Made by a program: the position numbers and the translations under genes. Below, one piece after another: positions 4,690 through 47,010 of a stretch of 64,000 nt of DNA. Numbering within the stretch: position 1 is the stretch's first letter; each line of letters begins with the position of its first letter. This stretch comes from Tubiluchus corallicola (Eukaryota > Priapulida > Priapulimorpha > Priapulimorphida > Tubiluchidae): positions 1-64,000 of the forward strand of contig JAQGDQ010000036.1 of assembly GCA_030141605.1 (NCBI GenBank). Reading direction: 5' to 3'. The notes beneath the pieces are model-generated. The model saw only the letters and a list, made by a program, of their open reading frames with translations, did no database searches and was not told the DNA's origin.

Positions 4690-4760
4690 CGAGTTAGAAT
4701 GGGGGCCCCATAATTTCATTAGCCTAAGGGCTTCCCAGGGTCATGGTCCGGCCCTGCACA
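4690..4760 (-). mobile_element. Possible hAT-like element end
   Basis: Read on the minus strand this begins GCAGGGCCGGACCATG and runs into a G/C-rich stretch with GGGGCCCCC. That resembles the ends of hAT-type non-autonomous elements (CAGGGCCGG...). I could not pair it with an opposite end, so this is a weak call. Confidence 0.3.
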
Positions 4761-4968
4761 TGGCAGATTTCATTTAACAGCCAGAGACAGGCCTGCTATA
4801 TGTTAACGCTGACATTCTTTGTAAAAATTTACGATTAATTAACGTGTCGCCATTAATTAACAGTGTCACCACAAAAAGACCCAACACTTGGTGCATGTAT
4901 TGGTGTACTTACATATTCAATTTCTTCTTTTTCTTCTTTGTCAGAATTTTATTAGTCATTTCAAACAA

Positions 4969-5196
4969 TTACCAAATCCGTCCCATTTTTACAATTCCTC
5001 TTGCTTGTAAATAGGCTAATTTCTCTCCTACATTCTCCAACATCGATATATATTCATTATTGACATTGTAACTGAAGGGTTCAGTATTAACTATTCGCTT
5101 GTTAAACGGACATGACTGCATATGGTCAGCCAGGTGTGGTGTGTCATTGAAGCCCCATCGAGAAATCGGTGTAAACGAATTACTGAAGAACCATCT
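4969..5196 (-). CDS. FBXO30: FBXO30/40-like gene, terminal coding exon
   Basis: 76 codons including the TAA stop at 4971-4969, too short to stand out as an ORF. The acceptor is TGTTTCAG before 5196, phase 0. The translation starts RWFFSNSFTPISRW and contains LADHMQSCPFNKR, which matches the conserved C-terminus of FBXO30/40 (the W-F-S...W.F.D...L.DH...C.FN pattern). This exon completes the domain left open by exon 1 across a 659-base intron. Confidence 0.85.
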   Translation of the reverse strand, partial: RWFFSNSFTPISRWGFNDTPHLADHMQSCPFNKRIVNTEPFSYNVNNEYISMLENVGEKLAYLQARGIVKMGRIW

Positions 5197-8100
5197 CTGA
5201 AACAGTACAATTTATCAAATTAGGAATAGAAAAGAAGTATTCTAGAAATTTGAGAGAAAGTGCATAGTATTCAATTTTAAATAACTGTCTATGAAACAAA
5301 CAGCATGATTTGCAATTTGTGCTTCAAGCAAAGTAACAGTACATTTTTCTTGTGCCTGTTCTGTAACATCTGTATATGGTTCTGGCTCTGAGTAAATAAG
5401 TTCTGGCTGCAAGATGTCAGTTTCCAGTTCTGAATAGCTCACAAATTCTCAACAGCTTGATTTTGCAACAAACAGATTGTTAAATTAAATTAAATGAACC
5501 ATGATTTCAATGGCTGCTTTATCTATTTAATCAGACTAAGCTTCTGCAGTAAAGTGATAAACGTATCGCAGAGATAATTAAACAATAATATGAGAACAGA
5601 TACTTAACCACAATTCGCAGGCATGAAAAAGCTTTATTTTCAGTTAAGAAGAAAATACTTCTAGACAAGTTTGATGAACTGTAATCTCAGTGGTTAAATT
5701 AACTGATTTTTAATATAAACTGTCGATTCATTAATTCTGGCTTACAGTTATATTCTAGTTTGTTTAAGCGTCCTTAAGTATAATTTAAGCAAAAAATTTA
5801 ACTGCTGATATGCCATTCAAACTAACATAATTTCCTAAAGTATAATAATTTGTACCTTATAAGCTATCTGCCAAGTGGATCTTGATGGATATTGTCGCTT
5901 TTCCCATTCCAAAATCACAATTCCTTTTTCCTCAAGCAAAGAAGAACTGACGTCTCGCATAAGTCGACTAACAAGTGCAAGGTTGCTGAGACTAAAACTA
6001 TCTAACAGGCGAGCGACATGGCAAATGAGTTCAAAGGGCAAATGTGAGAACTTATCATCGGAACTTAAATCATAATTCTGCTCTTCTAGTGTGTCATCTT
6101 CTACTGAGCTTTTTGAATAAGCATTAGCAGCACAGTGAAGTCCAGAAACACCAGAACCATCCAACAATTCAGGAGTTACTACAGGTTTCCATCCAAAACA
6201 TTCTATAGCTTCATCATAAATAACTTCTGCACCCTTATGGTTCGGGTAAAGCCTGCGCACAGAATGCATGCAGCCTTGAGATGACAGAGGGCAGCGCTGT
6301 TCTAACCAGCCATTTAATGCACTATGTATATCACCGTGTATGTTTCTATAGTGCCAAGGATACTGATCCCGCCGAAAAGCTTGCGAACAAAGAAAGGTGT
6401 ACATGGCTCTTGGTTTTGGCTGATATCGTGTTACAAATTCTATTGTTAAATCAAGTCCAAGTGATTCATTTCGCAACATTGGCGTAGGGGGTGGAGGTGG
6501 GGGTGGAGGTGGAATGAAGATTCCCTCTTCGCTTAGGTATTCTTCGGGAATTGGATGAATATCTGGGGGTGCAGACTTAGCTCGCAAGTTATACATTAGC
6601 TGATCCCGAGTCACCGATACAGAATCTCGTGGCAGTGAAACAGCTTTATCAGAAAGACTCTGTTTCTCATTAACAGTGCTTGATTCAGAAACCTCAGTAT
6701 CCTTCCCAGAACCAACAAGAACAACATGTTGCAATGCTCGACAATCTAAACAAGTATCTGACATTTCTTCTCCAGCTTCCTCTTCTGTAGGATTCTCAGA
6801 ATTTGCTGTAAATGAGTCATCTTTTGAGGATATGTCAAATCCAAATGATGGTGAAGCACCAACTGCAGATTCTGAAGACAAACGTGCAATATCAGGATCT
6901 TCACTTGCATTTTCCAGAAAAGCTCTCACAGCAAATGCATTTGAATTACCAACACCCTGATCAATACTTTCTGAACTCCTTTTATCTACACTTAGACTAG
7001 ATATTTGTTTATTCTGCCCTGTATTTTTTACAGAAACCCCTTTACTACCTTTTCTATCACAAAACTGAAGTGCTTTATCTGAATCAAATCCATTACTAAA
7101 ACCAATACCTTGCCCTGTATTTGAAGATTTTTCACTAGCACATAATGCTAAACCTTTTTCACAGCATTCTGCCAATTTGTCAGCTGTTATTGGCACTGCC
7201 CAACCATTAAAAGCATTGGCACTACAATCTGGACTGAAAGCTTTTTCATTTTTTTGATGCTCAGTTTTCGTTTTGTTTTGCGACAGAGTAAAGTTTAAGT
7301 TATTAATGCAAAGTTCTTCATTTGAATTTTCACTTATTTTTGCAGTTGCCTCTTGAACTTCAGCTTTAGATATTTCATGAATTTTATCCACAGTTTCCTT
7401 TTCGTTGGACGAAATGTCACATTTTTTAGAATATGTTTGGGAGACACAATTTGCAAAGCGTTGATCATGTTGCTCATCATATTTTTTAAGTTCTTGGCGC
7501 AGCCCTTCATTAATTTCTATTAATTCTTGCTGTAACTCTTCTTTTACTATCATAGAAGCTTTGAAACATGGCTCCCTCAATTTCTGAATGGCTGCAGACT
7601 CCATGTCTAGACCAGTATTCGGATCAATGATTTGTGGGTGTGATACTTGAAGACCTGTAATGGGGTCAATTGATTCATGAAAATAGTTACCATTTACTAT
7701 TCTAGCATGCTTTACAGGATCAGTGATAAGGGATGTGGCAGCTTCTTCAGCTTCTGAGAGACGACTGTCAGTATTTACCATGTTTGCTTCATTACTACTG
7801 TCTCGCAATTCATAAATTCCATCAATCATTTCAGACACATGTGTAATAATATCATGACATCGCATTCCAAGGCCATTACTACAACTCACTTCCTCTTTTT
7901 CACATCTTTCTTCATTCTTTCCATTGACATAATCATTCATTCCATCATTTGATTGATCATTGCATGTCATATGATATTCTCCAGTGGTTGCTAGCCTTTC
8001 TAAGTCCAGCACCATTAAGGGTCTTTCACTTTTACTTGATATTCCAACAGCCATACAGTTTTCTAGATTGTCCTGTTCAGCAACTTTACTTGACTTCAAC

Positions 8101-8729
8101 AACCGCTTACATACGCTACTAGATAGACCAGGTGGTACAGAATGTAAACCCCAAGGAGTCTCATACTCATCATCTGATACTGTTTTTGATGTTGGCATAG
8201 ATTCACCTGTAGAATCAGACTCAATCGAAACAGCTCGAACATGTGAGAGAGGCATTGCTGGAAATCGACGAGTAAGAGGAGTTGCCAGAGCCTTCCTTGT
8301 ACGTGAACTAACTTTCATTGCAGCATTCAAAACACGTTGATCTCTAAAGGCCAAAGCAACGTCCAACTGTCCTTCTCTGATGTTGGGATTGGTATGTCGA
8401 AAAGGCACGCTCTTCAGTCGTTCTTCCGTGTAAAGTGGCCAACGATTCCATTCCATTGTGCAGAATATCACACTTGCTGGACATGTTTCTAAGTGACTTC
8501 CTCTTTTCGATCGCTGTAGTACAAATGGGCAGCCATTAACTGCATTGATGCATGGTACTTTTTCATTCGGACACAACAGCTTGTGTTCAGATGACTTGCA
8601 AGCATGAAATCGTGCACCGCACAGTAATTCACAGTTAATTATGTGGCAAGTAATACCCTCTGCAAGGCGCTGGCTGCAGTTGTATGAGCGATAACATGTT
8701 GCACAGTGTGAATGGCTCGTTACTGTCAT
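4969..8729 (-). CDS. FBXO30: FBXO30/FBXO40-type F-box protein (two coding exons)
   Basis: Coding exons on the minus strand are 8729-5856 and 5196-4969, 1033 residues in all. In vertebrates FBXO30 and FBXO40 are substrate adaptors of SCF (SKP1-CUL1-F-box) ubiquitin ligases, studied mainly in muscle. Seen here: an N-terminal Cys/His-rich TRAF-type zinc finger (about residues 7-95, ending near a CTMEWNRWP motif diagnostic of this family); a long acidic Ser/Glu-rich middle with little recognisable order; a run of nine prolines near 740-748; the family's second conserved block (RYQPKPRAMYTF, HGDIHSALNGW, about 760-850); an F-box from about 894 (LPFELICHVARLL, LVSRLMRDV); and the family's C-terminal tail in exon 2. 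It is longer than the roughly 710-745-residue human paralogs, mostly in the middle. An acceptor at 8770 shows that a 5' UTR exon lies upstream, and the preceding intron enters the inverted-repeat arm. Invertebrates usually have one gene for both paralogs, so 30 versus 40 cannot be decided. Confidence 0.93.
5856..8729 (-). CDS. FBXO30: FBXO30/40-like gene, coding exon 1 (zinc finger through F-box)
   Basis: 958 codons from the ATG at 8729-8727. The open frame runs a few codons past 5856, but AAG|GTACAA is a good donor there and the conserved F-box tail resumes in phase 0 in the next exon. The frame is intact throughout. Confidence 0.9.
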
Positions 8730-8770
8730 TTTAGCATTTAGGCTATTAAATTTACAATTCCTCTTTCACC
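8730..8770 (-). other. 5' UTR piece and splice acceptor of the F-box gene
   Basis: On the minus strand TTTTTTCTAG precedes 8770, followed by 41 bases of leader and then the ATG. The polypyrimidine tract coincides with the inner end of the right inverted-repeat arm (8776), so the first intron, and perhaps the promoter, lie inside the arm. Confidence 0.7.
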
Positions 8771-8775
8771 TAGAA

Positions 8776-10127
8776 AAAATCAAATCATGCTCATAATCAT
8801 TTGCAGACAAATACTAGGCAAACACATGCTTTCACATAACATACATTGCAAAATGTAAAAGATGCCCACCAAAATAAAGAAACTGTTACATTTCAACTTT
8901 TAGTCATATTAGTCATATTAACAGATTCTTACGACCCATAAGACTGCTATAAACATATTACTATGCAAGATTTTGTCAAAATTTTAGAATATAACATTGC
9001 AATTTCTAACTGCCTGAACAATACATAAATTTGTATCAAGCATGTTAACTTCATTAACAGTTGTTGTTATGTCTCATATACAGCTACCTACGAGCTGGTT
9101 GATTATACAGTTTGTGACCAGGTATGTAGTACCAATTTAACCAGTCAGAAACTAGGCACGAAAAAATATGGATTTCTCTAATGACTATGTAAAAATGTCC
9201 AACTTTTTAAATGTTTGTGCCCTTTTTTGAATACATGCTAAATACACAAAATTTATTCAATTTTGTAGTATTTTCAAGCTCTACAAATCTTACTACAGTT
9301 TTATTTATAATGATAATTGCTAACCAAACATGGTATGCTAATTTACAGGCAAAACAATCAAATCTGCAAAAGCGGTCTATACTCGAATGAAATTTATACC
9401 ATCCACATTTTGGTGTTTCAGCTAATTTCTCCGCTGTATAGAAACAACCAATGTGTTACGCCTAAGCATTTAGAAAAAAATAAAATAGCAGTATGGATTA
9501 TGCAGAATTTGCCTACCAGCTATATTTTTCTATAATATAACGCAAATGTAACGCAAAAACTGTACTACATTCTCTAATTGTAATGTTGCAATTTGGGAAA
9601 TTCTTTTGATTTACTTGATCATATTCATAAACTCTTTGTTCGATGATTGAACAAACCCTGCCACATGATTTTACAACTTACTTGCATCAACCGCAAATGA
9701 AATACAGAATTGTCTCAGACACCTTTACAATTTGTTCAGATGGTACTTAAGATGTGCTATGTGATAGCTTTTGAACCAAAACAGTTAAGGATGGCAAATG
9801 CTGTAAGATACGCTTAAAATGTGTCTCTTTTATTTGTAATTTTATCTTAAAGTGATTTTTTATACTTGAGTGACACCAAACCGAAAACTTAAGCCTAATG
9901 ACAGTAATGTTGACCGTGCTACTGCACTGAATTCGGAACAAAATTTCAAGTTAAATCGTTACGTTGGACCGAAACTGAACCAAATTTTCTTGTACTTCGA
10001 ATTGAAAAAATATATAAATTCTGTATGTAAAAATTTTATTATTTTTAAGTTTGTGGTGAGCTGTGTAAATCTGTAAGCAATTCTTAATTTCCATGCACTC
10101 ACATTTTGATGCTCTGCATCTCCGTCT
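8776..10127. repeat. Right arm of large inverted repeat (upstream region of the F-box gene)
   Basis: Reverse complement of 1-1353 with one visible 1-base indel. It lies directly upstream of the F-box gene, so the duplicated sequence is the gene's 5' intron and possibly its promoter. After 10127 the sequence cannot be compared because the left copy starts at the window edge. Confidence 0.95.
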
Positions 10128-11107
10128 GTTTTTGGATAAAGTCGTAAAGCCGTAAGTTGCAATACGGGGTATTTTCCCCCCAAGCTGATTCAGTTTATTT
10201 TCGTTTTCTTGAAAAAATGCAAGGGCCATTATGATCTCTATGATCATTGGACGAGTACCAGTATCTATAGTCTATACCATTAAATCAGTACCATTGAATA
10301 TTATATAGTACCATCATTCAAAATCTTATGTGCATATACCAAAGAGAACACAATATATAGACATCCATTGCATCCATCATGGGATGAGGCATTTCCATTT
10401 CTTCTCTAAGCGTATTTGCAAAAAGCACCATGGCTCTTTACCACCAAATCGTCCTGTTGTTACTAATTTGTTTGTTTAGAAACGCTAAAAAGTTTGTTTA
10501 GAGATTGAGTGTATGATATAACCCGTTTTGGGTTCCTTACACAATGGCTACCAAAATTAAAACCACAAAATAGCCAAAATAATGGGGATAGCGGCAAAGG
10601 TGAGTTTAATTTACTTTAAAATGCGTGGACTATTTTTTATTTTACCTCGTATCGATGCTTTTATCAATTTTATTAAATTTTAATCTAAAATTGTCCTAGA
10701 TAACATTTGTTTGGAGGGGGAAGGGTGTCAAACTTAAGTGCTGCCCTAGGCACCACAAGCTCCAGCTACACCACTGATGTTTTATATTAGGCATTGCATC
10801 GAGAAAAATGACGAAAAACTCACATTCTAGTTGGCAGTTTTTAGTAACAATATCTTAACAGGAATTCAAAACCTGTTTAAAACTAGACTCTAAATAATGA
10901 TTACAAATCATTCAGTTTTCATGTTGGCTGTAAAAAGAGAAACTATGTCACCTGCTAAATGCCGATGCCAATTCTGTTTTCGTTTGTCGTTTACTGATAG
11001 TGCGTAGCCGGATGTATAGCCACATATATGTGCAGCGCGCATTATACTGGATGCGCACTAGCACTAACATGATAATACAACTTCTGTAAACACTTGTACA
11101 ATGTAAA
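10128..11107. other. Intergenic stretch, no gene recognised
   Basis: About 1 kb of AT-rich sequence. A repeat-like end may sit at 10770-10785, where the minus strand reads CAGTGGTGTAGCTGGAG, reminiscent of hAT-type termini. Nothing else is supported. Confidence 0.5.
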
Positions 11108-11395
11108 ATGCATAGCTGTAAAACACCAAAAACAGGATCTAATAAATGCAATAAGTTAAAATTTACACTCATGTTTTTCATTCATATTTTATTAAAAAAA
11201 CACTCTACAAACTGACAGATAAATACATCTCATTAAATACACGCATGCAGCGTATGAAGCTGTGAAAACATCTAATGTAGTATACATAACATGTCTACAT
11301 TGGCCTTTTCATTCTATCCATGATTTTGTGAACTCAGCTATTTGCATGGCTATAGATGTAAAACACCAAACAATAAGATCCAGTAAATGTAATAA
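11108..11395. repeat. Diverged repeat pair plus an old copy of the BBS4 3'-end unit
   Basis: 11108-11160 and 11345-11395 are diverged direct copies sharing TGTAAAACACCAAA and AATAA-rich sequence. Between them, about 11180-11265 resembles the polyadenylation-signal part of the 506-base units at 12349-13866 (shared CACTCTACAAA..GAC.GATAAATA and TACAC.CATG), but with many substitutions. Confidence 0.6.
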
Positions 11396-12348
11396 TTGGG
11401 ATTAACGCCGCAAAAAATTTTGGGATAAACCCATAGTGGCAATATCACACTATCTACACTACACCTCCCACATCAATCACATCTTACCACACTCACCACT
11501 ACACCATACATACCCACCACAACAACAACTTACAGTACACTCACTGTACCCACTACACCATACCATTCCACACCAAAGCCACCACATTACACAATGATAA
11601 TGATTATGATGATGACACCTGCAACATAAAAACACAAAAGAGTAAGAAACACAAAAACGTATTGTACAAAGTTGACACTGTGTGTTATGAAAAATACTAT
11701 TAGACCCATCTACCAATGAAAAATAATACACAAACATTCTAGATAGTTTTAGCTTACTGATTCTCAGATGGTAACAGATACAACTTACATTACAGAATCA
11801 ATAACACCATAGAGTGGCAGGTGATGACAATGCCTGGAATAGCTGCATAATTTTTAAACTCAAAGACAATGGGTGTTCCAACTAGCGTTGAAAAACGAAG
11901 TTGAAAAAGAACTTCGAAATACATCCTTCCCGTTTTGTCTAGTGAACATCTCTCCTAATGAAGCCCTAATATCTTGTAGACTGTTTCCGCCTCTTTCCGC
12001 AAATGTTTATATTTTGTCCCAACACTCCCAAACAGTTTTGAACAAATTTTTTTTCTGGAGGTATTTCGTGCAGTTTCCTGCAAAATTTGGGTGGATGGGT
12101 CCGGGAAAATGCCAGTTGCAGACAACATGGGCCTGCTGTACGCTAAAGATAAGAGGTGTAAGTTTTGCAAAAGGTTCTTTCCAGTAGACCCAATTCGAAA
12201 AATAAACCATAAATGAGAAGACACTGGATCAAAACCTTTTATTTGATGTAAGGATCGCTGATAATTATGGTGGCATCGTTGGAGCCACAGCCTCAAATCT
12301 TGTATATAAAAATTTAAAATACCATATACCAATGAAATTAATATGTAC
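11396..12348. other. Region downstream of the BBS4 3' repeats, no gene recognised
   Basis: Two open frames of 104 and 125 codons overlap on opposite strands (11873-12187 plus, 11955-12332 minus). Neither resembles a known family or has clear splice or leader context, so I call neither a gene. 11450-11600 is rich in CACCAC/ACACCA trinucleotides. Confidence 0.45.
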
Positions 12349-12521
12349 GATTTTCACTCAGTTGTCAGGATTTTTATTAAAAAGCACTCTACAAATGGAC
12401 GGATAATTATATCACATTAAATACACACACATGTAGAGTATGAAGCTGGGACAGAATTTTTACTTAAGCCTAAAATACATCATTTAAAGACACCAAATAT
12501 AGAAGCAATTACCAACATGAT

Positions 12522-12849
12522 TTATACATTTTCACTCGGTCCACAATTCCGCAAGCTCAGTAATCTTTGTGTGGCTACTTTTTGGCCAACAAATTGCTTC
12601 TCATTCGGGTCAAAATTAGGTGGATCAGGTGCTGAAGAAATCAATGCACCCGGGTAGGTGTCTGCCTGGTTGACCTGTGGTGGAGATCCATCCGATGTGT
12701 TAGAAATATCCCTAGGAGACTGCACTAACCCTTTAGGTGTCTTTAGCGGTGGAAGCTGTTGCTGCTTTGATAATTCTCCATGACAACTGCAGCTGGAGTT
12801 TGTTTATTAAAATCAGTGGTATTCCAAACTTGACTTTCACTGACTCGCG
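12522..12849 (-). pseudogene. Outermost partial copy of the BBS4 terminal exon
   Basis: It reads as the C-terminal BBS4 exon but lacks the acceptor and the first residues, and has the 1-base deletion near 12778 relative to the functional exon. It would lie in the 3' UTR or downstream of BBS4. Its end has NCGPSENV instead of the WTE-stop ending because of a second frame change near the end. Confidence 0.8.
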
Positions 12850-13027
12850 AGGCAGATTTTCACTCAGTTTTCAACATTTTTATTAAAAAACACTCTACAA
12901 ATGGACGGATAAATATATCACATTAAATACACACACATGTAGAGTATGAAACTGGGACAGAATTTTTACTTAAGCCTAAAACACATCATTTAAAGACACC
13001 AAATATAGAAGCAATTACCAACACGAT

Positions 13028-13356
13028 TTATGCATTTTCACTCGGTCCACAATTCCGCAAGCTCAGTAATATTTGTGTGGCACTTTTTGGCCAACAAATT
13101 GCTTCTCATTCGGGTCAAAATTAGGTGGATCAGGTGCTGAAGAAATCAATGCACCCGGGTAGGTGTCTGCCTGGTTGACCTGTGGTGGAGATCCATCCGA
13201 TGTGTTAGAAATATCCCTAGGAGACTGCACTAACCCTTTAGGTGTCTTTAGCGGTGGAAGCTGTTGCTGCTTTGATAATTCTCCATGACAACTGCAGCTG
13301 GAGTTTGTTTATTAAAATCAGTGGTATTCCAAACTTGACTTTCACTGACTCGCAAG
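13028..13356 (-). pseudogene. Middle partial copy of the BBS4 terminal exon
   Basis: Same structure as the outermost copy: no acceptor, the same 1-base deletion near 13284, and a further small deletion near 13080 (GGCACTTTTTGG against GGCTACTTTTTGG). Not expected to be translated. Confidence 0.8.
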
Positions 13357-13542
13357 GCAGATTTTCACTCAGTTTTCAACATTTTTATTAAAAAACACTC
13401 TACAAATGGACGGATAAATATATCACATTATATACACACACATGTAGAGTATGAAGCTGGGACAGAATTTTTACTTAAGCCTAAAACACATCATTTAAAG
13501 ACACCAAATATAGAAGCAATTACCAACACGATTTATACATTT

Positions 13543-13896
13543 TCACTCGGTCCACAATTCCGCAAGCTCAGGAATCTTTGTGTGGCTACTTTTTTGGTCA
13601 ACAAATTGCTTCTCATTCGGGTCAAAATGAGGTGGATCAGGTGCTGAAGAAATCAATGCACCCGGGTAGGTGTCTACCTGGTTGACCTGTGGTGGAGATC
13701 CATCCGATGTGTTAGAAATATCCCTAGGAGATTGCACTAACCCTTTAGGTGTCTTTAGCGGTGGAAGCTGTTGCTGCTTTGATAAGTTCTCCATGACAAC
13801 AGCAGCTGGAGTTTGTTTATTAAAATCAGTGGTATTCCAAACTTGACTTTCACTGACTCGCAAAGCAGGACCAATCTTATCAGCAACATCTAGCAA
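13543..13896 (-). CDS. BBS4: BBS4 terminal coding exon (functional copy)
   Basis: 117 codons plus TGA. It opens with [14 protein letters not shown], matching the family's end-of-body helix, then gives a Pro/Ser-rich tail ending LAELWTE. The TTTTTTCTAG acceptor is present only here, not in the two downstream copies. Confidence 0.9.
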   Translation of the reverse strand: MLDVADKIGPALRVSESQVWNTTDFNKQTPAAVVMENLSKQQQLPPLKTPKGLVQSPRDISNTSDGSPPQVNQVDTYPGALISSAPDPPHFDPNEKQFVDQKSSHTKIPELAELWTE

Positions 13897-16800
13897 CTAG
13901 AAAAAATAAATTATGCTGAAGAACTCAGCAGAGTAGTAATATTCATATCTTTTCGGGCAATTGCCATTTTTTGCAAAAATTCTAATTATCTTGAATAAGC
14001 ACTTGCTACAAAAAAATCTATAAAGTTTACTTATTTTAAATCTTCTAATTAAAATCGTAACACAGTGATTTCTGAAATTAAAAACACCAAAACATATTAT
14101 AAAGAATTAAAAAAATAAAATATTAATAAAAATTAATTAATTAAAAATCTTAAGTGTAGATTGTTATGAATGATGTTACAAACCAATAAAAAAATAATTT
14201 TCGGTAACCGTACTTGAAAGACAGGAAATGCAAAAAAGTTGAAATGTGCAGCCAATACATGCCATAAACGACTAACCAACTACATTCCCCAGTCCTAAAT
14301 TCAACCTTTGTAGTCATGGCTCCTTCAAAAGTCAGGTCAGGAAGGCACATGACTTGCTTGCGTCACAACCCAGCTGTCCGCCATTTTTAGGGTAGTTGTA
14401 GTGGTAATCCCAAAGAACTCATTGACAAACAGATATATAAGACATAGTCCTCATTTGTTAAAGTCAAAGGTCTTTTGCACCTTTCAAAGTCTGTGTTGGA
14501 TATTGCAGCAACTACCGAGGCAGTATTTGGATTGACATTTGTTCAGGACTCAACTCGTAATGAAATTTTGGACACAACTTGCAAAGCAACTTCAACAAAA
14601 ATTAGTGATTCTGAAGTTTCGAAGTTTCGTGATATTTTGTGCAAAATTGTTTCCAAAATATATTCACCTGCGGCTCCATATTCAAGCAAAATCTTTAATA
14701 AGCAAACATTCGCGAAAAGATACGGCCAGTAAAAGTGCTGCTCAGCGGTAAAGTAATTTAATAATCTCAATTATAATGTTTACGTATAATGATAATTTAA
14801 TCCAACAATCACATAATCATATTTCTCGCTTGTAAAAAAAATGTTTGTTTAATGCAATGCTCCATTATTAAACATGCAGTTTATTTTTCTTACTAAATGT
14901 TTTATTATTTAAAACACTAAGTAATAATTTTGGAATTATTGAATTTTTTGAATTTTAGAACTTTGGAAGTTCTATGTAATAAAGAAAAGTTTTTAATTAA
15001 TGTAATGTTTCATTATTACACATGTATGTATTTTTCTAAAAATATATTATGTTTTATGCACTCAAAATTAAAAAAAATATTGTCTTTGAAACCTTATAAT
15101 CTTTGCGCTTGCGATGTTTGACTTGACTGAGTTTCGCAAAGTGTAACACATAGAAAAAGTGAACATTATGAAAAATAACATACATGTGACTGAAACAAGC
15201 TTTTCTATTCTTATAAATTATTTAGACACGATGGGAGGAAATAATAATAATTATGATTATTAGACAAGGTTAGCTTCATTTAGTACTGAACACAGTGATC
15301 AGAACGCATCAGACAAGATGTAATAAGCCCAAAAATGGCGGACAGCTGGGTTGTGACGCAAGCACGTCAAGTGCCTTCCCAACCTGTCTTTTGAAAAGGC
15401 CTTGCTTGTATTTGGCCAATGACATTCAACAGTACCATTGTTAGATTACTCACACAAGAACACACTTAAAATCCAGGCTGCATTCCAACATTTTCTGTCT
15501 TTCAAGTCTGGGTTTCAAAATTTAATTAATTGTGAGTTTGTAACATCAAAGTAAATTAATCTTTTAAAAAATCAATTTTTCATTGGAAAAACTCAAAACA
15601 AAGAAGCTGATAAAGTGCATAGAATAAATCTGTAATGGCTAAATATTGTCCCAAATGAAAATATGCAAAATGGAATAGAATGTAAAGGTATTTACAAGTT
15701 TTAGAATTTTTCACATTTACCTCCTTGTCGATTTCCACATTCTGTTGTTCCTGTTTTAAGGTATTTGTTCGAAATTCAAATTCCTTTAGCTGTTTTAAAG
15801 CGAGCTTCCGTTCTCCATTGTTGTAACAAAATACACAGTAGTTCAATGGAATTGACGGGTCTTTGCTAAATAACAAGAAATGAAAAAGATCATAGTGAAC
15901 AAAAAAGATGGGAATTAATTTACAATAGAAAGAATATAACAAATAATTCTTAACCATAATAACCATAATCCAAACTAGTAAAAAAATCTAAAATACCTAC
16001 AATAAAGAAATTACAAAACAATTTTACAGTACACATCTGCAAAGGCGTACAAATAACTGCCTGGCACACATTAATAATATATTTCTGCTATGCTGGACCA
16101 TGCTACGTGTTCAACTGAAAAATCAAAATTTGCATTTTGCGACTGTTTTTCATACAGACATTTTATTTCAGATCTCGTTCAAAGAAAAATGTCACTGTTA
16201 TGTTGTTATTTTTGTTCACTCATAATCATCATCATCATCATTGTGAAATCATGCAGTGGTATTAGTAGTATTATAATCATTAATATCATATTACTGCAGA
16301 AATGGCATGAAATAATAAATTAAAAATTCTGAGCCTAACATAAAAAAGCTTACTTGTCCAACAGCAGAGCCTTCTCATATGCTTGTTTAGCATTTTCAGT
16401 ATCCTCCAGCTGATTAAGTGAAACTAGAAGAAAAAAGCACTAATATGTAAAAACATACTAATTCCAATATACTTCATGCACTGCTCAAATACTGTCTCTA
16501 AACTTTGAGTTTTTAAAATACTCTTGGCTTCATATTAATTTTTACTGATCTGGCAAATGTGGAAAATGTTAGCATACATTTTACAGCTGCATTTCTAACA
16601 ATACTTTAGGTAACCTGAAAAGCAAATGACGATGCACACATTCCATAAAAACAAGATGGTAAACAATACTGACAAGCTTCAGGAAATGCTCATGACTGAA
16701 ACATTCGAGCAAACACAGTTAGAAAACCTCTGGATAAAACATACTGCAAAAATAGTAGAGCTTCTAAACTTGAATATCAAGACCTAAGTGTTTAGAAATT

Positions 16801-19800
16801 TCTTCCAGGTATGCTTGTTCGAAAAAGATTCTCTATAATATTCAAATACATGGGTTTAAATACCATGTGTGCTACATTCTTTCGAATGTTATTATGTTAC
16901 ACAAGGTGAAAAGTGTGCACATCATTAACTATTGTTGGGTAGGTAGCATTGGTCATTGAAAGCACCCAATACTAAAATTTCTTGCTTCAGACTTGTTCTA
17001 GTTTAAATTCTTTACAGAAGATGAGGTTTAGCAAAGCTCACAGAATTAAATCATAAGTAGGTAATTTAGGCATAAAATTAAGGCAGTGTGTGCTTTTAAC
17101 CACTAATGTTATTACAGAATTACAGTCAATGAAACACACAATTTCACCACATAGTGGTACAATATTTTTAAAACAGCTTCGAACACAGTTTCGCATACAT
17201 GACAAAGTTTTCAAACAACCTTCATAGCCAGAAACTAAACCCAAGGAAGTGGCGGCATCTATCAACACTAGGTTCGCACCAATTCCCTAAGCATCATGTG
17301 ATCCGTAATTCATATTTTAACACTTATTTATAATTCAATGCGAAATAAGCAACAGAGCTGCTTCCCACGAATGAGAGAAAACTACAAACTAAGAAGCATC
17401 CAAATCAGTAGTAATTTGGTGACTCACACACAAACAAATCACGTCAGTTAGAAATAATAAGCAAAGGCTGCACAACAATAAAAACAACAAAATTTTTAGA
17501 GCATATACTTACTTGCCATGAGCATATACAATTGTGCATTTGATGGCATATAATTAATAGCTGCACTAAGGAAATGAAATGCTGAAGCATATTGTTGCAT
17601 GGTAAGATGGACCAACCCTAAATTGTACAAAATTTGCCATTCAAAGGGAGCCAAGTAGTTTGCTCTTTTCAAACAGCTAATAGCCTGGAATAAAATGACA
17701 GAGAAAAACTTTAACTAACAGATTAGTCTAGCAAATATATAGGTAACAAATCCTACTTCTGAAAATAGGGACAGTTAAAATGGACAAACTTAATGCGAAT
17801 TTCTCATCTATTTGTTGTCTGTAGTCAAGCACCGAACAACACGTAATATCGTATCTTATAAACTGTTCATCAAAATGTTGATAAAGTTGCAGAAAACATA
17901 AAAAATAATATTCAGTACTTACAGCAACATATTTTTTCTTGCCAAAAAAGCACATTCCTATGTTATTCCAGAGAGGCGCACTTTCTGGTATTTCATTTGC
18001 TGCGATTCTGTATTTAGTAAGAGCAACATCAAAATCTTTATGTGTCTGCATCATACAACCTAAAATGTTACAATGCATTTCAATATGCAATACAGTGCAC
18101 CACCAATATTGACTATGACAATATTGTCATGCAGGCATATGGCTTTGGAAATTGTCGAGGAAAACCGTCTAGCAATCAAGCCGACATTTTTGAAATTTAC
18201 AACCAAAATGAATCAATTTGGATGCGGGTAAATGAAATTATGCAAAATCTAGCCTAAACAAATGTTTGCACAGTAAACTTTCCAGAACAGTTAGAATGTT
18301 AAGTATGATCTTTTAGCCTTTCAAGCTTGTTTAAAAATTTTGTTTTTTTTATTTTGCTTCGGCAATTTGCAGAACTCTGTAGCATACTTAGCTCAACTAT
18401 CAGAGGAACATCGAGTTTTGCAACTTGGTTAACTTATCTTGATGATTTAGAATGACTTTAATTAAACCCGCTCTGTGATGAAATGTATAGCTACATTCTA
18501 AAAATCCAAAAAAAATCATTTAAAGCTGCCACTGAAAGCTCAAAATGTAGTTTCAAAGCACAATATTATGCTTTTGGTATTAAAACTCCCAATAACATGT
18601 TTCATTACTAAACTGCAATTATGACATAAAAACCAAGCATCAATACAGAAAAATCTAATAAATGTTCAATTATTGACATCATTTTCAGATTACAAAATAC
18701 TGAAGTTATGTAAGTCACTGGCTCACTAAACCACATTTGCAAGTCTGGGACAAGTCTGCTCCACACTCTTCCCAGTACCTCCCTCCTCAACACACATGGC
18801 TATCCCAGGGGTGTCAGGTAAAATCACTTTCACAATGTGGACACCCTAACCAAAGTGAAGCAGTATAAAAAAAAGAAAACAGAAAAGCCTGGCTTTGAAG
18901 CTAAAAAAGTTTCTCTATAATGTTAACATTTATGTATACGCTAATAAAATAATTGTCCAACAAAAAAGAGAGGAAAAAAGGACAAGAGTACACTTGAATT
19001 ATATTTAATATGTATCCACGTTAAAAGAATATATAAAATGCAGAGGCAGAGTTCATAAAGCTACATAGAAATTTATTAACTTACCCGCAGCTAGAATACC
19101 ATCAAAGTAAGCTGGATTGTATGCTAAAGCATTTCCAAGATGCTCAAATGATTTCTGATAAGCCCGTGCTTGCAAATACAAAAGGCCCAACGTCGTAAGT
19201 AATTCTGGATTTTCCGGTGAAAATCTAAAAGGGAAAATTGCAATAACACATTAACATAATGATTTTAATTAAGGAGCTAGCCGAAAAAAGTATTTGGCTT
19301 TCCAAACATCACTTAGAGATTTGTTTTATTATAATGTATACATACATGAAGTTTTCCATTTAGAATTTTCACAGTTATGGCATAAACATATGTCCTCATA
19401 ATCTTTGATTATTATCTAGCAATAATTAAATAATCTTATTTTTGAAAGATTATATTATTAATTATTATAAATTATATAGGACTATAAGATTATTCCTCTG
19501 ATTGTGTTGTGCACATAGATGAAGTGAACTTATTCCATCAACAGATGGCGAAACTATCTCTCAACAAAATCACGGGCCTGACGGTTGCATGCAGCAATAT
19601 GCTGCATTACAAGAGTGTAATTACAGTCATCATGTTGGGAGCGGAATAGGCCACTAGCCGAAGTAGGTCAATTGGCGTACATTAGCAAGCCCAAGTAGGA
19701 TGTGTCGTACACATGGGTTAGCTCACCTAGGACGCGTCGTACATGGGCTGCCCAAATAAGACACTAGAGACAGGCCACGAATTGAGTCGTTAACCGTAAT

Positions 19801-22800
19801 GGCAGCGTGCATTGTCCTTATTTATTTAGTAATAATAACTGAAAACGTCAAAACACGTTGAATAATTAATGATACATTTGATAAAATAAAAGAATCTTAT
19901 TCTGAGCTAGTAGAACGGCCAATATTACTATATAATATAAAATTTGGCTTCGATACTAATCTTTTGAAGCGAAATAAGCCTGCTTTTTAGGCGATTCCAA
20001 CATTTGCTTAAGGTATATCATTTTTTTGTTTTGTCTTGCTTCACAGACAGGTGATCTGTTTCACTACTTCTTAAGCAAATAATTGTTTTCTACTAAGTAA
20101 ACGGGCTAGCAAGCTATGTGTTCTACATAGTTTCCCTCTTTAAAGCATTGGATACAGTTTAATGTCATGATGATGTTAATGGAGCTAATAATAATGATGA
20201 TATTATTGCAAAAAAAATACATTTGTAAATTGTCAAGGACTATCTATCATTATAATAACGTTACTTTTTTTCTAAAACAAATTTAGTTTTATTTTTTGTT
20301 ATAAACCATAATTCTCGACTCTCGACAGTGCCCTACTTGGGCTGAATATGTACGACACCGCTTTTCCGCAAATTTAGCACATGCGCTTTAACGGAAGAGT
20401 CCTACTTCGGCTACTGGCGTACACCACGCCCTACAATTATTATTCTATCGTTATCTGTAAACTACGGGGTTCACGTGTTGATAAATTATAATGTTACTGT
20501 TCTAAGCCATTAGGTAGCTATGTACTTAATTCACAGCCAACGTGACTGTGCATAATCTTAATATGGCGTTAAGTAAAATATACAAGATCTACATTGGCTG
20601 GTATGTGTTGTGCAATTTATTATTTATATGACTCTGTTATGAGGCTGATACACTTGCAGTTTAGGTGGTTCTTCTCATACAATACTACCTTCCTATATCA
20701 GTCCCACTGCCGACACTCTACCCCTTTCCCACTTCAAACCTCCCGCTCCATCGCCAAGAGTGCCAAGCTGTCCAACCCAACCTGCCACACCGCAAACTCG
20801 TCTAATTGATTGATTAACTGACTAGCTTAGCTAGCTAACTAATTAACAATGTTCGTACAGTCACCTTTTTTGTATGGTACGAAGTCTGAAATGTATGTAT
20901 GTTCCAATATTACTTATTTTATTGTATAAACCGCAACCAAGCTTTGATGGTTGCGCTTCATTTCAAAAGTGAAACAAAAGTTACAAAACAAAGCCGGTAG
21001 AGTTCCTCACTTACTGCCACACACAGACACTGCAAAGTGGTGCACATTGAGAAAATATGCGTGAAGCTTTTTTTAACGTTTCAGTAAGTTTACACTTCTT
21101 TTTTGTGAAGCTCTGTGAAGAGATTTCTTAGGCTGTGGGCGCACAGTAGTAGGTAAAGTGTATCACTTTCTGCTAACTTCCGAATGAAAATATTTCATGA
21201 AATCGCTCAATCTTAGTCCATTCTCGCGATGCTAACAGTAAGTTTTTTTGAAATTTAGGAGGTATGTTTCAACTTTTCTTTACATCAGTGTGCAGATAAA
21301 GGACGCACCTTTTTACTGTAGCCCTGCTTTCAGCAATATTTCTGATTTACGCAATTTGAGAGTGCCTTAAAAAAGAACCACCTAAGCCGCAAACTACCTC
21401 GATACGGTTATGACTTACGATAAGCCATTTTCTAGTTCTAAACTATTTGTGGTTTCAGTATTTGTAAACGTAAAGCAGACAGTTAGCTCTATTGTGTTGT
21501 CTGTTGTTAAATGCTAAAACTGCAGAACTGTTTTTGTACAAATTATATACAACACTTTTACTCTAGATCACTTAAAATTATTCTGAAAACCTCAGCCAAC
21601 AGATCACCTAAAATTGCATTTTTGTATGTTTCCAAAATTAAATTGTACTTTTTAGTATTGTACTGAACAGAATTAACAGTCTCCGTTTGTTTCAGGGCAA
21701 TTATTATTACCACAGGAATAGCTGGTTTTATTGCCACTAAAAATCAAGTAAATAATAACAGATACGAGAGAATGAAAATACGCCAACGCATAAAAAATTC
21801 TAATGTGGGAGACTATGAACCAAGTAGCCGAAGATTCTAAAAGATCAATCTTGCTACAGAGATAATCCCAAGATGGCTTCTTTAAATGTAGTTGAACTCT
21901 TGAACTACACACTGTTGATAAGCTAATACTGAGAGAAAAAATTGTACAGCATCGGCAGGATGCCAAAAAGTACACAGTATGAAAAAAGAATAACTGCAAT
22001 CGTTACTGCAGAGCTTTAACAAGTGGTAAATTGTAATAATATACCATATTATGATGTAAACACCAATGAGTCAATGACGCATAATATGAGGACCAGTGCC
22101 GGGTAGTAGCACAGCTGAGATTTGACAGCCTACTCAGTCTTTTTCATTAGCATTAGTTAACTGTTTTTTTATGAGTGGTGACCGAAAAGTAACATTAGAA
22201 CACATTATGGGCTAGTAGCTCCCGCTACATTACTTAATGAGCTTTCTTATAATATCCTGTGTTAAATGACTTACTTAATATTTTAACTTCTGAATATAGA
22301 TACTAAACTTTAAATGCAATAACTAAACTTCAAAGTTGAATTATTGTGATTCGCTTTGTCCACAAAGAGAAGTGTGTTGTAACAGGAAATAAGGGAACTA
22401 CTGGAAATGCTGCAAAAGCAATAGCTTTCCAAGGCATATCACGTGAAACAATAATAATTTTTCATTTTTGTATTCTCCTGTAATGTGGGCTAGAATAAGC
22501 AGTGTTGGGTTCAGCATAGTGATAAGCAACTCACTACTGCAGTTTGTTATATTTTCTTGGAGCAGTAAGTTAGCGAGCTACAATTTTTAAAGAATAAAAA
22601 ACAGCTTGTAGCATATTAAGATTATTAATAAGTAATATTAGCATATTACCATTAAATTAAAAGGCATGTAATGTTACAGTAACAATGGTACTTTATATAT
22701 TTTGAAAGTTTGCTTATTCAACACTTTCAAGCATAAAATGCATCATCTAACAGCTAATGTTGTTCATTTTACAAAAGTGGCACACCCTAAGTCATAAAAA

Positions 22801-32669: not shown

Positions 32670-32952
32670 GATTCAGAGTTATCAATTGATTGAAATATAC
32701 AAGACGGGATATCCTGACTAAACTAATTACATCACCACCGTACATGCAAAGAATATCAACCACAGAAAGTAGGGGAACGCATACTGCGCAGTAGTTCGCG
32801 CAGTTAGTGTCGCCCTAGCGGCAGACCATTACGGACTGTTGTTGTCAGGTACGCTACAGCGCAGCTGTTCGCTGTAGGCACACCGGTGTGTAGTGTAGCA
32901 GATGAATTGATGAGACCACCAAAGGCAGGTTAGTCGACAGGCGCTCACAAAT

Positions 32953-33016
32953 TGCTCAGCAGTGAGTTGCAAAAACATAAATAAAATCTTGTTAAATTTC
33001 TCGAGGATGCAGCCAG
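32953..33016 (+). pseudogene. Degraded THAP-domain first exon, left palindrome arm
   Basis: The frame encodes CSAVSCKN, then a shortened stretch and LLNFSRMQP before a CCAG|GTAATT donor. Compared with the right-arm copy it has lost bases in the middle, removing part of the NTNENARISF segment. The C-x4-C pattern at the start is kept. Confidence 0.55.
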
Positions 33017-34383
33017 GTAATTATAACAAAATGCTAATTATAACACTGTTTTGTAACTTTTGTTACAAGTTAAATATATGTACACTAGGCAAAGAATGCA
33101 AGGCCTACACCTGTCTTTGGCGATTTATAGCAGCTGTTATATTTTTGAATATTATTTAAAGCAAGCATATGGCCCTAAGAATAATTAGTAGTTAAAAAAA
33201 ACTATTATATTCGTATCTCATGAAAATTAATATGCTTATTTGCAAAAGAAGTTAAAAAAAGTTGAACATAAAGAAAATTTGCAAATACCTGGCTCAATTT
33301 TTCTAAAAAAACATTCCTATGTAATATGTTTTTATCAGGAAATATAACTTGAAGAAACATTAGGACTGACTTTCGTATGTAATACCTTCCATAGAAACAA
33401 ATCGATTTTTTCAGTAGAGCAAATTTTTCCAGAACAAAACTTAATCTAAGCGTCTACATGTTTTGTTAATTCCAAGTTAAAAGATGTTTAAAAAGCATAT
33501 AATCACACATTGGCCCTTGTTATGAGTTGGAGTTGGTTATAAAATCACGTTGAACAAACGGAGATGCATTTTGAACATTACTCCTTTTTTTATTATAAGT
33601 GAACAAAAAATAGCAAAACGAAACATCAGAGCTGTCATCCTAAGCAGTCGGCATTACTTCCACCTCTATAACAACCAACTAACTAGGTCAAAATCAAGTT
33701 ACGGAGTTCAGGTGAGAAGCCAACCTGGCGTATAAATTAGAATCGGCAGGCGTGTCATAACACTTTATATATCATGTGTAGACGTCACTTGTATTTAGCC
33801 TATTTTTTAAGATTCAGTTAGGCTTACGTCAAAATAAGTGTTCATTAAATGCAGTTTGTTTACGTGTAAAAAATGCACTTGTATAAGCGTACTAATAAAA
33901 CACCTGCGGCTAAATCCACTGACAAGTCTTGATAAACATTATTTATTGATGGGCTTAAATTAATTGATTTTATACAGGCCTAGTTGATAAAGGCAATCAT
34001 TTTACATAGTTAAATACATATATAGGCTCAGCTTCATAGAATCCTTGTATGTAATAATGCATACATCATACATGCATGTGAGTGTGTGTGCAGGGGTGTA
34101 TCAAGACGTTACAACGCCCTAGGCTAGCAGTTCAGTCCTACTCATCTCCTACTGTAATGATTATTTATATATGAAGCACCGTATGCAATTACTTGTTGTT
34201 TGCGTGCGTGCATGTGCTAATTATTTATATACAAACCTACAATATAATATGTGTGTAATTATATAGAATAATTGCAGGGCACGTAAATGCGTGCAATTTT
34301 TAATGTGCCAATCCGCCACCTTGCATTGGAGTGAAACGACCAAGAAACAAATGGCAGAACCTTCAACAAAAGGAAAAGAAGGA

Positions 34384-34458
34384 TCTCTCTCTTTCTCTCT
34401 CTCCCCCTCTTTCTCTCACTCCCTCCCTCTCTTTCCCTCAAAAAGAGGGAAGGAGAGA
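34384..34458. repeat. CT-rich tract in the inner palindrome arm
   Basis: CTCTCT/CCCTC-rich run; its counterpart GAGAGA-rich run is at 35310-35385 in the opposite arm. Confidence 0.85.
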
Positions 34459-36660
34459 AAATCAAATAAATCAATAAAAAATGCATTACTTTTTTACAAC
34501 GTAGGCAGCCCATCACGCAGTCAACTAGCCTCTTTCCTCAGGAAGAACAATAAAGTTTTACTTACAAGAAAACTGGAGAAGTATTTGCAAGTACATAATA
34601 CAAACTTATTGCTACAACTGTTTTTCGTTTTCATGATGTGTTTTTAGTTTTATAAAACTAATAATTGCTTTTATTTGAAATATTCTTCTTTTATTAAAAG
34701 CGCAAAAGTGACTTATCAAAATAGCATGTTAATGCGCCGCTCAAAATTTTTTAATGATTCGCCGTTTGATGCCGCCAGCATAGCCGCTAATCGCAAAAAC
34801 GAAATACGTAACAATAGTCTTCGTCATTCCTCTTATACACTTTGGTACATGAATGTAACCTATATCAATGTGTAAAAAAATAAGAAGTAACCAAATTCTA
34901 TTGCTACGATTTCGTTTTTACGATTAGCGGCTATGCTGGCGGCATCAAACGGCGGATGATTAAAAAATTTTGAGCAGCGCATTGACTGTAATTATATTCT
35001 TAAGTTCACCAATAATGTTGGCATACGCGCAATTTCGATAAGCCAAAATCACTTTTGTGATTTTAATAAAAGAAGAATATCTCAATTAAAAGCAATTGAT
35101 AGTTTGAAAAAACTGAAAACATTTCATGAAAAGGAAAAAAAATGTAGCAATAAGTTTGTATTATGTATTTGCAAATACTTCTCTAGTTTTCTTGTAAGTA
35201 AAATTTTATTGTTCTTCCTGACGAAAGAGGCTAGCTGACTGCGTGATGGGCTGCCTACTATGTAAAAAATAATGCCTTTTTTAATGATTTATTGATTTTT
35301 CTCTCCCTGCCTCTCATGGAGAGAAAGATATGGAGGGAGAGAGAAAGAGAGACAGTGAAAGGGAGGGAAAGAGAGAGAAAGAGCGATCACGTTAACAAAT
35401 GATTAGTATAAGCTCCTTACCCATTTTGTGCCTATGCGAAATAAGGAAAAGCAAATCCTGTTTATCTTGTTCAGCGATTACTGCAAGTCCAAAGCGCAGA
35501 CCACTTCAAAAAATGAGCCATGCTTCATCTTTGTTTAGGTAACTTAAAGCATATCACAAGCTAGACTTATGCAAAAAATCCGAGAATCCTCAAACGAACT
35601 CTCGGGTCTCTCCACAACAATAATTTTATTTGTCGTGTATCCACATTATTATAACATGTATATAATTATGTTATGTAAGTCCAATTATTCAGTATAAATT
35701 ATTACAATAAATTTTTCTTTAACTTTGTCACTGTTTTTGAGTTAGCTGACATGATGATCTGATAGGTGTTTCGCTACCCTTTCTCTTGCGCCCACTTATA
35801 TAATCACTTCTTCACATATATTTCCTTCCTTTTGCTTTTGTGTAAATTTTACGTGTTTAGTAGTTGTAATTTTATGTAAATCTGCTTTAAGAGAGATTAA
35901 TAAACATGTCTATATCTGCCTAGACGTTATTAGTATTTCAGTTTTTTTATTTTGTCAACATAGTCTTATACTAACTTGTATTTTTACCAATTGCTTTTGC
36001 CATAACATTATTTTGTGTATATGCTTTTGGATGTAGAATTGCCAATGTACACTGCAGTTAAAGTATTTGTGCAATAAAAATGAAATGAAATGAATTATTA
36101 CTATGCCATGAACGATATAGTACTAAGCCTGGCTGTAGGAACCAGAGACGTGGAAAAGATATCTTCCCATATCTCTGGTGAGTGGCAGGAACTGTGGCCT
36201 CTGCTGTGATACCTGCTCCTGAAATATAAGTGTTACATGCTCCTGAAAAAAATTGTTTTTTTATGAAAGGTATATTACACATGACAGTCGGGCCTGATAT
36301 TTTTCAAGATATATTTTCTAGGAAAAACTTGAAATGGGAATGTTTTCTGGAAAAAGCATTTCTCCTTAAACAGAATATTACGTGAGCCGGGTTATCTGCA
36401 AACTTTCTCTATGATGAACTTTCTTAACTTATTTTGTAAATAAGCCTATTACTTTTTACGAGATATGAATACAATAATTTAATTTTAACTAATAGTTGTT
36501 CTTAGTGCCTTATTCTTGCTTTAAAAATATCACAGCTGCTATAAATCGCCAAAGACAGAAGTAGGTCTTGCTGTGTTTGCTTAGTGTACAAAAATTTAAT
36601 ATTTTAATTTGTAACAAAAGTTACAAAACTGTGTTATAGTTAAAATTTTGAAATAATTAC

Positions 36661-36787
36661 CTGGCATGCTCCTCGGGAAATTTAAAAAAGATATTCTAGC
36701 GTTTTCATTTGTGTTTTTGCAATACACTGCTGCGCAGTAATGAGCGCATGCCGACCGGCCTAGGTTTGGTGCAAGCATTTCATGCAT
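36661..36787 (-). pseudogene. THAP-domain first exon, right palindrome arm
   Basis: The minus-strand frame includes CAAVYCKNTNENARISFLNF, then PRSMP, ending at a CCAG|GTAATT donor. The C-x4-C-K-N...SF..FP pattern is the start of the THAP zinc finger, a DNA-binding domain used by P-element transposases and THAP proteins. The remaining ligands (C-x2-H) would lie in later exons, which I could not find, so this is a fragment. Confidence 0.65.
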
Positions 36788-36924
36788 TCGTCTGCTAGAT
36801 ACCGGTGCGCGAACAGCTAGGCGATAGCGTACCTGACGACAACAATCGTCAACCTTATTTCTGTCCCGTTAGGGCGACATTAACTGCGCAGGACCCCATA
36901 CTTTCGGCGGTGCGTTGCGGCTTT

Positions 36925-37624
36925 GTCGGGAGCAAAGTAGGACACTAGCCAAAGTAGGACAATTGCCGTACAGGGGCTAGCCCAAGTAGTTCGTGTCAAC
37001 ACGAGCTGCCCAGGTAGGACAAACAGCAGGTCACGACAAATTGAGTAGTTGACCCTAGTGGCAGCCCTTGTCCTTGTTTATTTAGTAATAATAATTGAAA
37101 TTATAATCATAAATTATGATTTATCTGATAAAATAAAAGAATTTTATACTGAGCTAGTCCAGCGAGCAATATTAAATTTGGCTTGGAGATTAATCTTTTT
37201 AAGTGAAATAAGCTCCCTTCGTTTTTGATGATTCCAACCTTTAGTTAAGATATGTCATTTTTTTATTTTGTCTCGCTTCACAGACAGGCGATCTGTTTCA
37301 CTACGTGAATAAAGCGAGCAAGATACGTGCTTTTCATCTTGCATACTGGCACTTTTCATTGATGTCAGTTTGTTCGCCGATTTGGTGAAGATCGTGTGTA
37401 TCCACGGGTATGACGGCAACGATCAGCCAACAAGCACAATTTTTAATAAAATGAAGAAACTTTCACAGAATTTTTAAAAATTTGGCTAAATTCTCGATGT
37501 AAAGTTAAAAAGAGTGAAAGAAATCGCCAGTGTGCTACTTGGGTTACCCATGTACGACACCGGTTTCCCGCAAGTAAGCGCATGTTTTAACATGCGTGTC
37601 CTACTTCGGCTAGTGGCCCCCTAC
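36925..37624. mobile_element. TIR element family 1, copy B
   Basis: Left core CACTAGCCAAAGTAGGAC, right core GTCCTACTTCGGCTAGTGG. The interior shares with copies A and C the TAATAATAATTGAAA segment and the CGCTTCACAGACAGG..GATCTGTTTC segment. It begins about 15 bases beyond the right end of the giant palindrome. It has an extra segment near 37320-37520 and a shorter right half. Non-autonomous. Confidence 0.85.
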
Positions 37625-46263: not shown

Positions 46264-47010
46264 TGTTGGGAGTCGAGTAGGGCACTAGCCGAAGTAGAAC
46301 AATGGCGTACATCAGCTAGCCCAGGTAGGACGCGTCGTACATGGGCTGCCCAAGTAGGACACTGAAAGACAGGTCACGAAATGAGTTAACCGTAATGGCA
46401 GCGTCCGTTGTACTTGTTTATTTAATAATAATAATTGAAAACGTCAATACACGTTGAATAATTTATTATACATCTGATAAAATAAAAGAATTTTATTCTG
46501 AGCTAGCAAAGCGGCCAATATTAAATTTGGCTTCGATGTTAATCTTTTTGAAGTGAAATAAGCCTGCCTTTAGGCGATTCCAACATTTGCTTAAGGTATA
46601 TCATTTTTTTGTTCTGTCTCGCTTCACAGACAGGTGATCTGTTCCGCTATCTCTTGGACAAATAATTACTCTACTAAGTAAACGTGCTAGCGAGCTATGT
46701 GTCCTGCATAGTTTCTCTCTTTAAAAGCATTAGATACTTAGCTTAACGTTTGATGATATTAAAGGAGGTAATAATAATGATGATATTATTGTAAAAATAC
46801 ATTTGTAAATTGTTTAGGACTATGCATCATTATTATAAAATTACTTTTTTCTAAAACAAATTTAGTTTCATGTTTCATGTCATAATCTCGACAGAAATCG
46901 CCAGTGCCGTGCTTGGACTGCCCATGTACGACACTGCTTTTCCGCAAATTTGGCACGTGCGCTTTAGCGGAAGTGTCCTACTTCGGCTAGTGGCGTACTC
47001 TGCGCGCTAT
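46264..47010. mobile_element. TIR element family 1, copy C
   Basis: Left core GGCACTAGCCGAAGTAG, right core GTCCTACTTCGGCTAGTGGC. The interior aligns with copy A over nearly the whole length (ACGTTGAATAATT, GATTCCAACATTTGCTTAAG, GATGATATTATTG) and is closer to A than to B. Subterminal repeats CCCAGGTAGGACG and CCCAAGTAGGACAC are kept. No coding capacity. Confidence 0.88.

Follow-up and report, generated by a model that had tools for sequence, protein, structure and literature searches.

Several described transposons resemble the elements reported here. Galileo of Drosophila is like our family in its THAP plus RNaseH transposase with a GTP-binding insertion domain, in its many internally deleted copies, and in its target site duplications (TSDs) of 7 bp and occasionally 8 bp (PMC4168063), but it has long foldback-like terminal inverted repeats (TIRs) within one element, whereas the TIRs here are about 13 bp and the palindrome is attributed to two elements. 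Pdre2 and the other zebrafish P-like elements, which are relatives of THAP9, share the short 13-bp TIRs and have internally deleted relatives (PMC10983969; PMC7776569), although Pdre2 has 8-bp TSDs and ends reading CATACCTGTCAAC, compared to mostly 7 bp and CAAAG(A/T)(A/G)TA here. The 7-base TSDs are typical of Galileo, not of P itself or of zebrafish Pdre2 (8 bases). The P-related MITEs of Anopheles gambiae are likewise non-autonomous, keep 5' and 3' parts of P, and occur in many copies (PMC1562414), but they have 8-bp TSDs; our units are 2.1 to 2.8 kb long, have 7-bp TSDs, and retain a transposase exon and intron.

The window analyzed here is a stretch of 64,000 nucleotides of contig C2214 from the 343.5-Mb genome of Tubiluchus corallicola. 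The apparent giant palindrome that it contains is almost certainly a pair of ordinary insertions, namely, two non-autonomous copies, tail to tail, of a single P-superfamily transposon family, both with internal deletions. A P-superfamily family of this genome now has defined ends, TSDs, an exon structure, and transposase-bearing partner copies.

Layout of the two units

The inverted arms reported in an earlier note on this DNA are real. Self-comparison recovered nested inverted repeats far above the chance level: the outer arms (32798-33417 and 36240-36889) are 71% identical over 682 columns including gaps (E about 1e-92), the inner palindrome (34384-35378) is 77% identical (E of 0), and complementarity in most of the ungapped arm blocks is 76-94%. 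The two intervening segments, 33418-34383 and 35379-36239, which separate the outer from the inner arm on each side, have no mutual homology. Each unit contributes its 5' end, with THAP exon 1, to the outer arms and its 3' end to the inner arms; the true outer limits, 32747 and 36925, lie slightly beyond those given in the note. The parts are as follows.

32740..32746, unstranded: left TSD copy of the left unit, GTACATG, 7/7 identical to the 7-mer at 34845-34851
32747..34844, + strand: left unit, a non-autonomous P-superfamily element of 2098 bp, CAAAGAATATCAA...TTATACACTTTG, with boundaries from 14 copies
32953..33014, + strand: decayed THAP exon 1 of the left unit (CSAVSCKN...LLNFSRMQP), donor CCAG/GTAATT, from alignment with other copies
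34281..34385, + strand: THAP exon 2 remnant of the left unit (start only), fused to exon 3 (NPPPCIGVKRPRNKWQNLQQKEKKD) by an internal deletion shared in the family
34845..34851, unstranded: right TSD copy of the left unit, GTACATG
34866..36925, - strand: right unit, a more diverged second copy in opposite orientation
34866 and 36925, - strand: right unit termini, the 3' end (CAATGTG...) at 34866 and the 5' end (...GGCTTTG) at 36925
36661..36787, - strand: right-unit THAP exon 1, with an open frame from ATG, MHEMLAPNLGRSACAHYCAAVYCKNTNENARISFLNFPRSMP, donor CCAG/GTAATT
35387..35634, - strand: 3' part of the parent element kept only in the right unit, 90-94% identical to copies at C474, C2155, C1616, and C266
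35635..36239, unstranded: right-unit internal sequence not common to other units, including a dispersed repeat at 35743-35917

A 21-bp spacer (34845-34865) separates the units, and the right unit starts 14 bases past the second GTACATG. The segment at 35387-35634 is missing from the left unit. Within 35635-36239, further genomic matches occur only at about 35743-35917, a separate dispersed repeat with copies of 73-83% identity elsewhere. A CT-rich tract in the 3' end of both units (34384-34440 and 35319-35386) is present too in transposase-bearing copies and apparently belongs to the element itself.

No TSD of the right unit was found, including beyond the neighboring repeat (36924 to about 37620). 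Because no TSD is recognizable and the outer end abuts a different repeat family, which starts at 36924, the insertion of the right unit is not directly demonstrable; the neighboring repeat appears to have disturbed its flank. This neighbor is a dispersed repeat with inverted ends of its own (GGGAG..AGTAGGACACTAGCC.. / ..TGTCCTACTTCGGCTAGTGGC) and has three copies in the window, at 19633-20418, 36924-37620 (abutting the right unit), and 46264-46994.

The repeat family and its transposase

The further genomic copies that the earlier note had proposed looking for are plentiful. When one outer arm was searched against the same genome, at least 40 copies were recovered, 79-93% identical to it, and about as many were recovered with the inner piece. 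On many contigs the two occur as a single pair, about 1.2 kb apart. The 3' end, searched as a 25-base pattern with two mismatches allowed, has 104 matches genome-wide and 0 in a reversed control. Thirteen loci were read, and both ends were located for 14 copies. The unit is non-palindromic, 2.1 to 2.8 kb long, and runs from CAAAG(A/T)AT... to ...TACACTTTG; the majority of the copies read are solitary and bounded by short CAAAG...CTTTG terminal repeats. These TIRs, of about 13 bp, are imperfect; in the compared copies the two ends match at 9/13 to 11/13 positions. By eye, CTAGCGGC / GCCGCTAA could form a subterminal inverted repeat, but so short a match is expected by chance and was left uncounted. 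The end motifs served to place the unit ends, and the flanking TSDs gave an independent confirmation: among the 14 copies, nine have 7/7 matches, two have 6/7, and one has 8/8, compared to a best of 5/7 in a control of 182 cross-pairings of ends. The deleted units that retain the region have a common junction within exon 2, GGGTGCA/ATTTTTAATG (one base is changed in the window copy), and therefore most likely descend from a single deleted founder.

The earlier note had recognized in each arm a THAP-domain exon with the common CCAG/GTAATT donor, and profile searches bear this out once the exon is joined to its downstream partners. Only the right-unit exon is ATG-initiated and open (MHEMLAPNLGRSACAHYCAAVYCKN...NFPRSMP); the left-unit exon has in-frame stops upstream and, compared to its right-unit counterpart, a small internal deletion. 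The C-terminal piece of right exon 1 alone scored 14.4 bits against PF05485, below the cut-off of 23.9. Joined to exon 2 of the copy at C1950 it scored 47.2 bits, and with exons 2 and 3 of that copy it scored 52 bits over profile positions 1-87, a full-length THAP domain. All 8 of 8 invariant residues (C2CH plus P, W, F, P) are present in this joined reading, in which the splice is a predicted one. The C1950 copy has an intact exon 2 (ARKWVQNVRR...CSEHFEDSEF, 28.4 bits to THAP), followed by a third exon that includes AVPTIF, a portion of the transposase, and the same 3' end as the units. Exons 1, 2, and 3 would be spliced together; a point against this reading is that the phase between exons 1 and 2 fits in C1950 only with the acceptor GCAGAG/CT, where the deleted units have GCAGGGCA.

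At C266, matches to PF21787 (85 bits), PF21788 (58.8 bits), and PF21789 (33.3 bits), all above cut-off, lie upstream of the 3' end common to the units; they correspond to the N-terminal RNaseH part, the GTP-binding insertion, and the C-terminal RNaseH part of a P-type transposase. The best PDB match of this copy is the Drosophila P transposase (6p5a/6pe2, E 3.4e-8). With the domains of C266 and C1950 lying upstream of the same 3' end, the exons in the arms are those of a P-element-type transposase, as the note had supposed; its alternative of a THAP gene whose first exon had been captured is rejected. The transposase-bearing relative that the note had proposed searching for exists at both loci, each copy being incomplete: C266 is broken by a stop within the search match and has no 5' arm within the 10 kb searched upstream, and C1950 is missing its 5' end as well as the RNaseH N part. 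Because none of the copies read joins a full 5' arm to a full transposase, the parent element is argued from the common segments.

The RNaseH-like transposase split by a GTP-binding insertion domain (in C266), the N-terminal THAP zinc finger (52 bits in the joined exons, given the predicted splice), the CAAAG...CTTTG TIRs, and the TSDs of 7-8 bp are those of the P superfamily, within which this is a new family. Long inverted repeats in one unit within one TSD, as in foldback elements and Galileo, were found neither in the solitary units nor in the composites. Kolobok elements also bear THAP domains and have TTAA as their TSD; they were rejected as a placement, the TSDs here being 7-8 bp and of varied sequence.

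Origin of the tail-to-tail arrangement

Trees and pairwise identities separate the two halves of the palindrome. The nearest relative of the left unit is the left unit at C2230, with 96% identity in the 5' arm (compared to 81% to the right arm in the window) and 94% in the 3' end (compared to 88% to the right unit in the window). Between the right unit and other copies, identity is 78-84% for the 5' arm and 87-91% for the 3' end. The two units belong to different subfamilies, and their 5' arms are about 19% apart.

C2230 is itself a second tail-to-tail pair. Its unit 1 has the TSD ATCACGA and its unit 2 the TSD CACATCGT, and its 11-base spacer, ATCACGATGTG, holds both, overlapping. The TSDs differ and overlap, and the locus is therefore the product of two successive insertions into an original target site, GATCACGATGTG.

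The parent element would have encoded a THAP domain across three exons followed by a P-type transposase with RNaseH domains and a GTP-binding insertion, and this transposase would have moved the deleted copies in trans, by cut and paste, as is known for P elements (PMC7776569). At the window, the second copy probably inserted next to the first, as at C2230 and also at C1741 and C1866, where the copies are head to tail, and the sequence common to both units would then have produced the nested palindrome. The order of the two insertions in the window is likewise a reconstruction.

The only modestly interesting point is this clustering of copies end to end. Five end-to-end junctions were confirmed (the window, C2230, C1741 twice, and C1866, the last three being head to tail), compared to roughly 0.002 junctions per orientation expected, by our own estimate, from random placement of 104 copies. 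The excess is consistent with insertion beside existing copies or with local hopping, which is described for P elements (PMC7776569). P elements that land in resident P elements serve as a comparison, an exact point on which our literature search found no open paper. A hairpin transcript from the window palindrome is conceivable. We consider it improbable, however, that the family has a preference for inserting into its own TSDs and that the resulting tail-to-tail dimers, much like an accidental small-RNA source, silence the family through hairpin transcripts of the transposase 5' exon.

Less probable still, and in our judgment very unlikely, is a single foldback-type, Galileo-like element with very long TIRs and a duplicated THAP exon, mobile as one 4.2-kb unit; a foldback-type element was one of the two readings offered by the earlier note. 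The nested palindrome itself and the second full tail-to-tail arrangement at C2230 would agree with it, and Galileo is a P-superfamily precedent for foldback-like TIRs (PMC4168063). Nevertheless, neither composite has an outer TSD (GTACATG versus TCGGGAG in the window and ATCACGA versus ACGATGTG at C2230), and the units bear their own. Both halves are complete transposons, each ending in short TIRs of its own. Most of the copies read are single and without long TIRs, self-comparison of the solitary units having given no long inverted self-match. Furthermore, the arms of the composite are not sisters, the halves being separately inserted members of different subfamilies.

A local inverted duplication, through an error of replication or repair that made one element palindromic, would account for the tail-to-tail layout and the short 21-bp spacer, but the left unit's own TSD sits in that spacer and the halves, from different subfamilies, retain different internal segments of the parent, which makes such an event extremely improbable. 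There is an equally slight chance of a mirror-image assembly artifact, since such mirrors would have near-identical arms, whereas those in the window reach 71-81% identity and the halves have separate relatives elsewhere, even though at least one contig of the assembly (C118) has inverted copies with equal match scores that are maybe artifactual.

Other inverted and P-type repeats

The C118 structure (4426-14086, with L060 at its center) is a 9.7-kb inverted duplication of the family described above, around a roughly 52-bp tandem repeat. Match scores are identical on both arms, and the structure may represent either a recent duplication or a mirror introduced by assembly.

A second P-type family is represented by L048 (C2301), L049 (C1472), and L051 (C1740), which have single-exon THAP-transposase frames about 94-98% alike. 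This family was considered as the partner of the deleted units and rejected: it has no DNA in common with them, and its TIRs, which begin CAAGGACTACTATAC, differ. Its TSDs are 8 bp (GTATAAAG and CTTCATTC). Of the three copies read, two have frames open over 877-881 amino acids; the family looks recently mobile.
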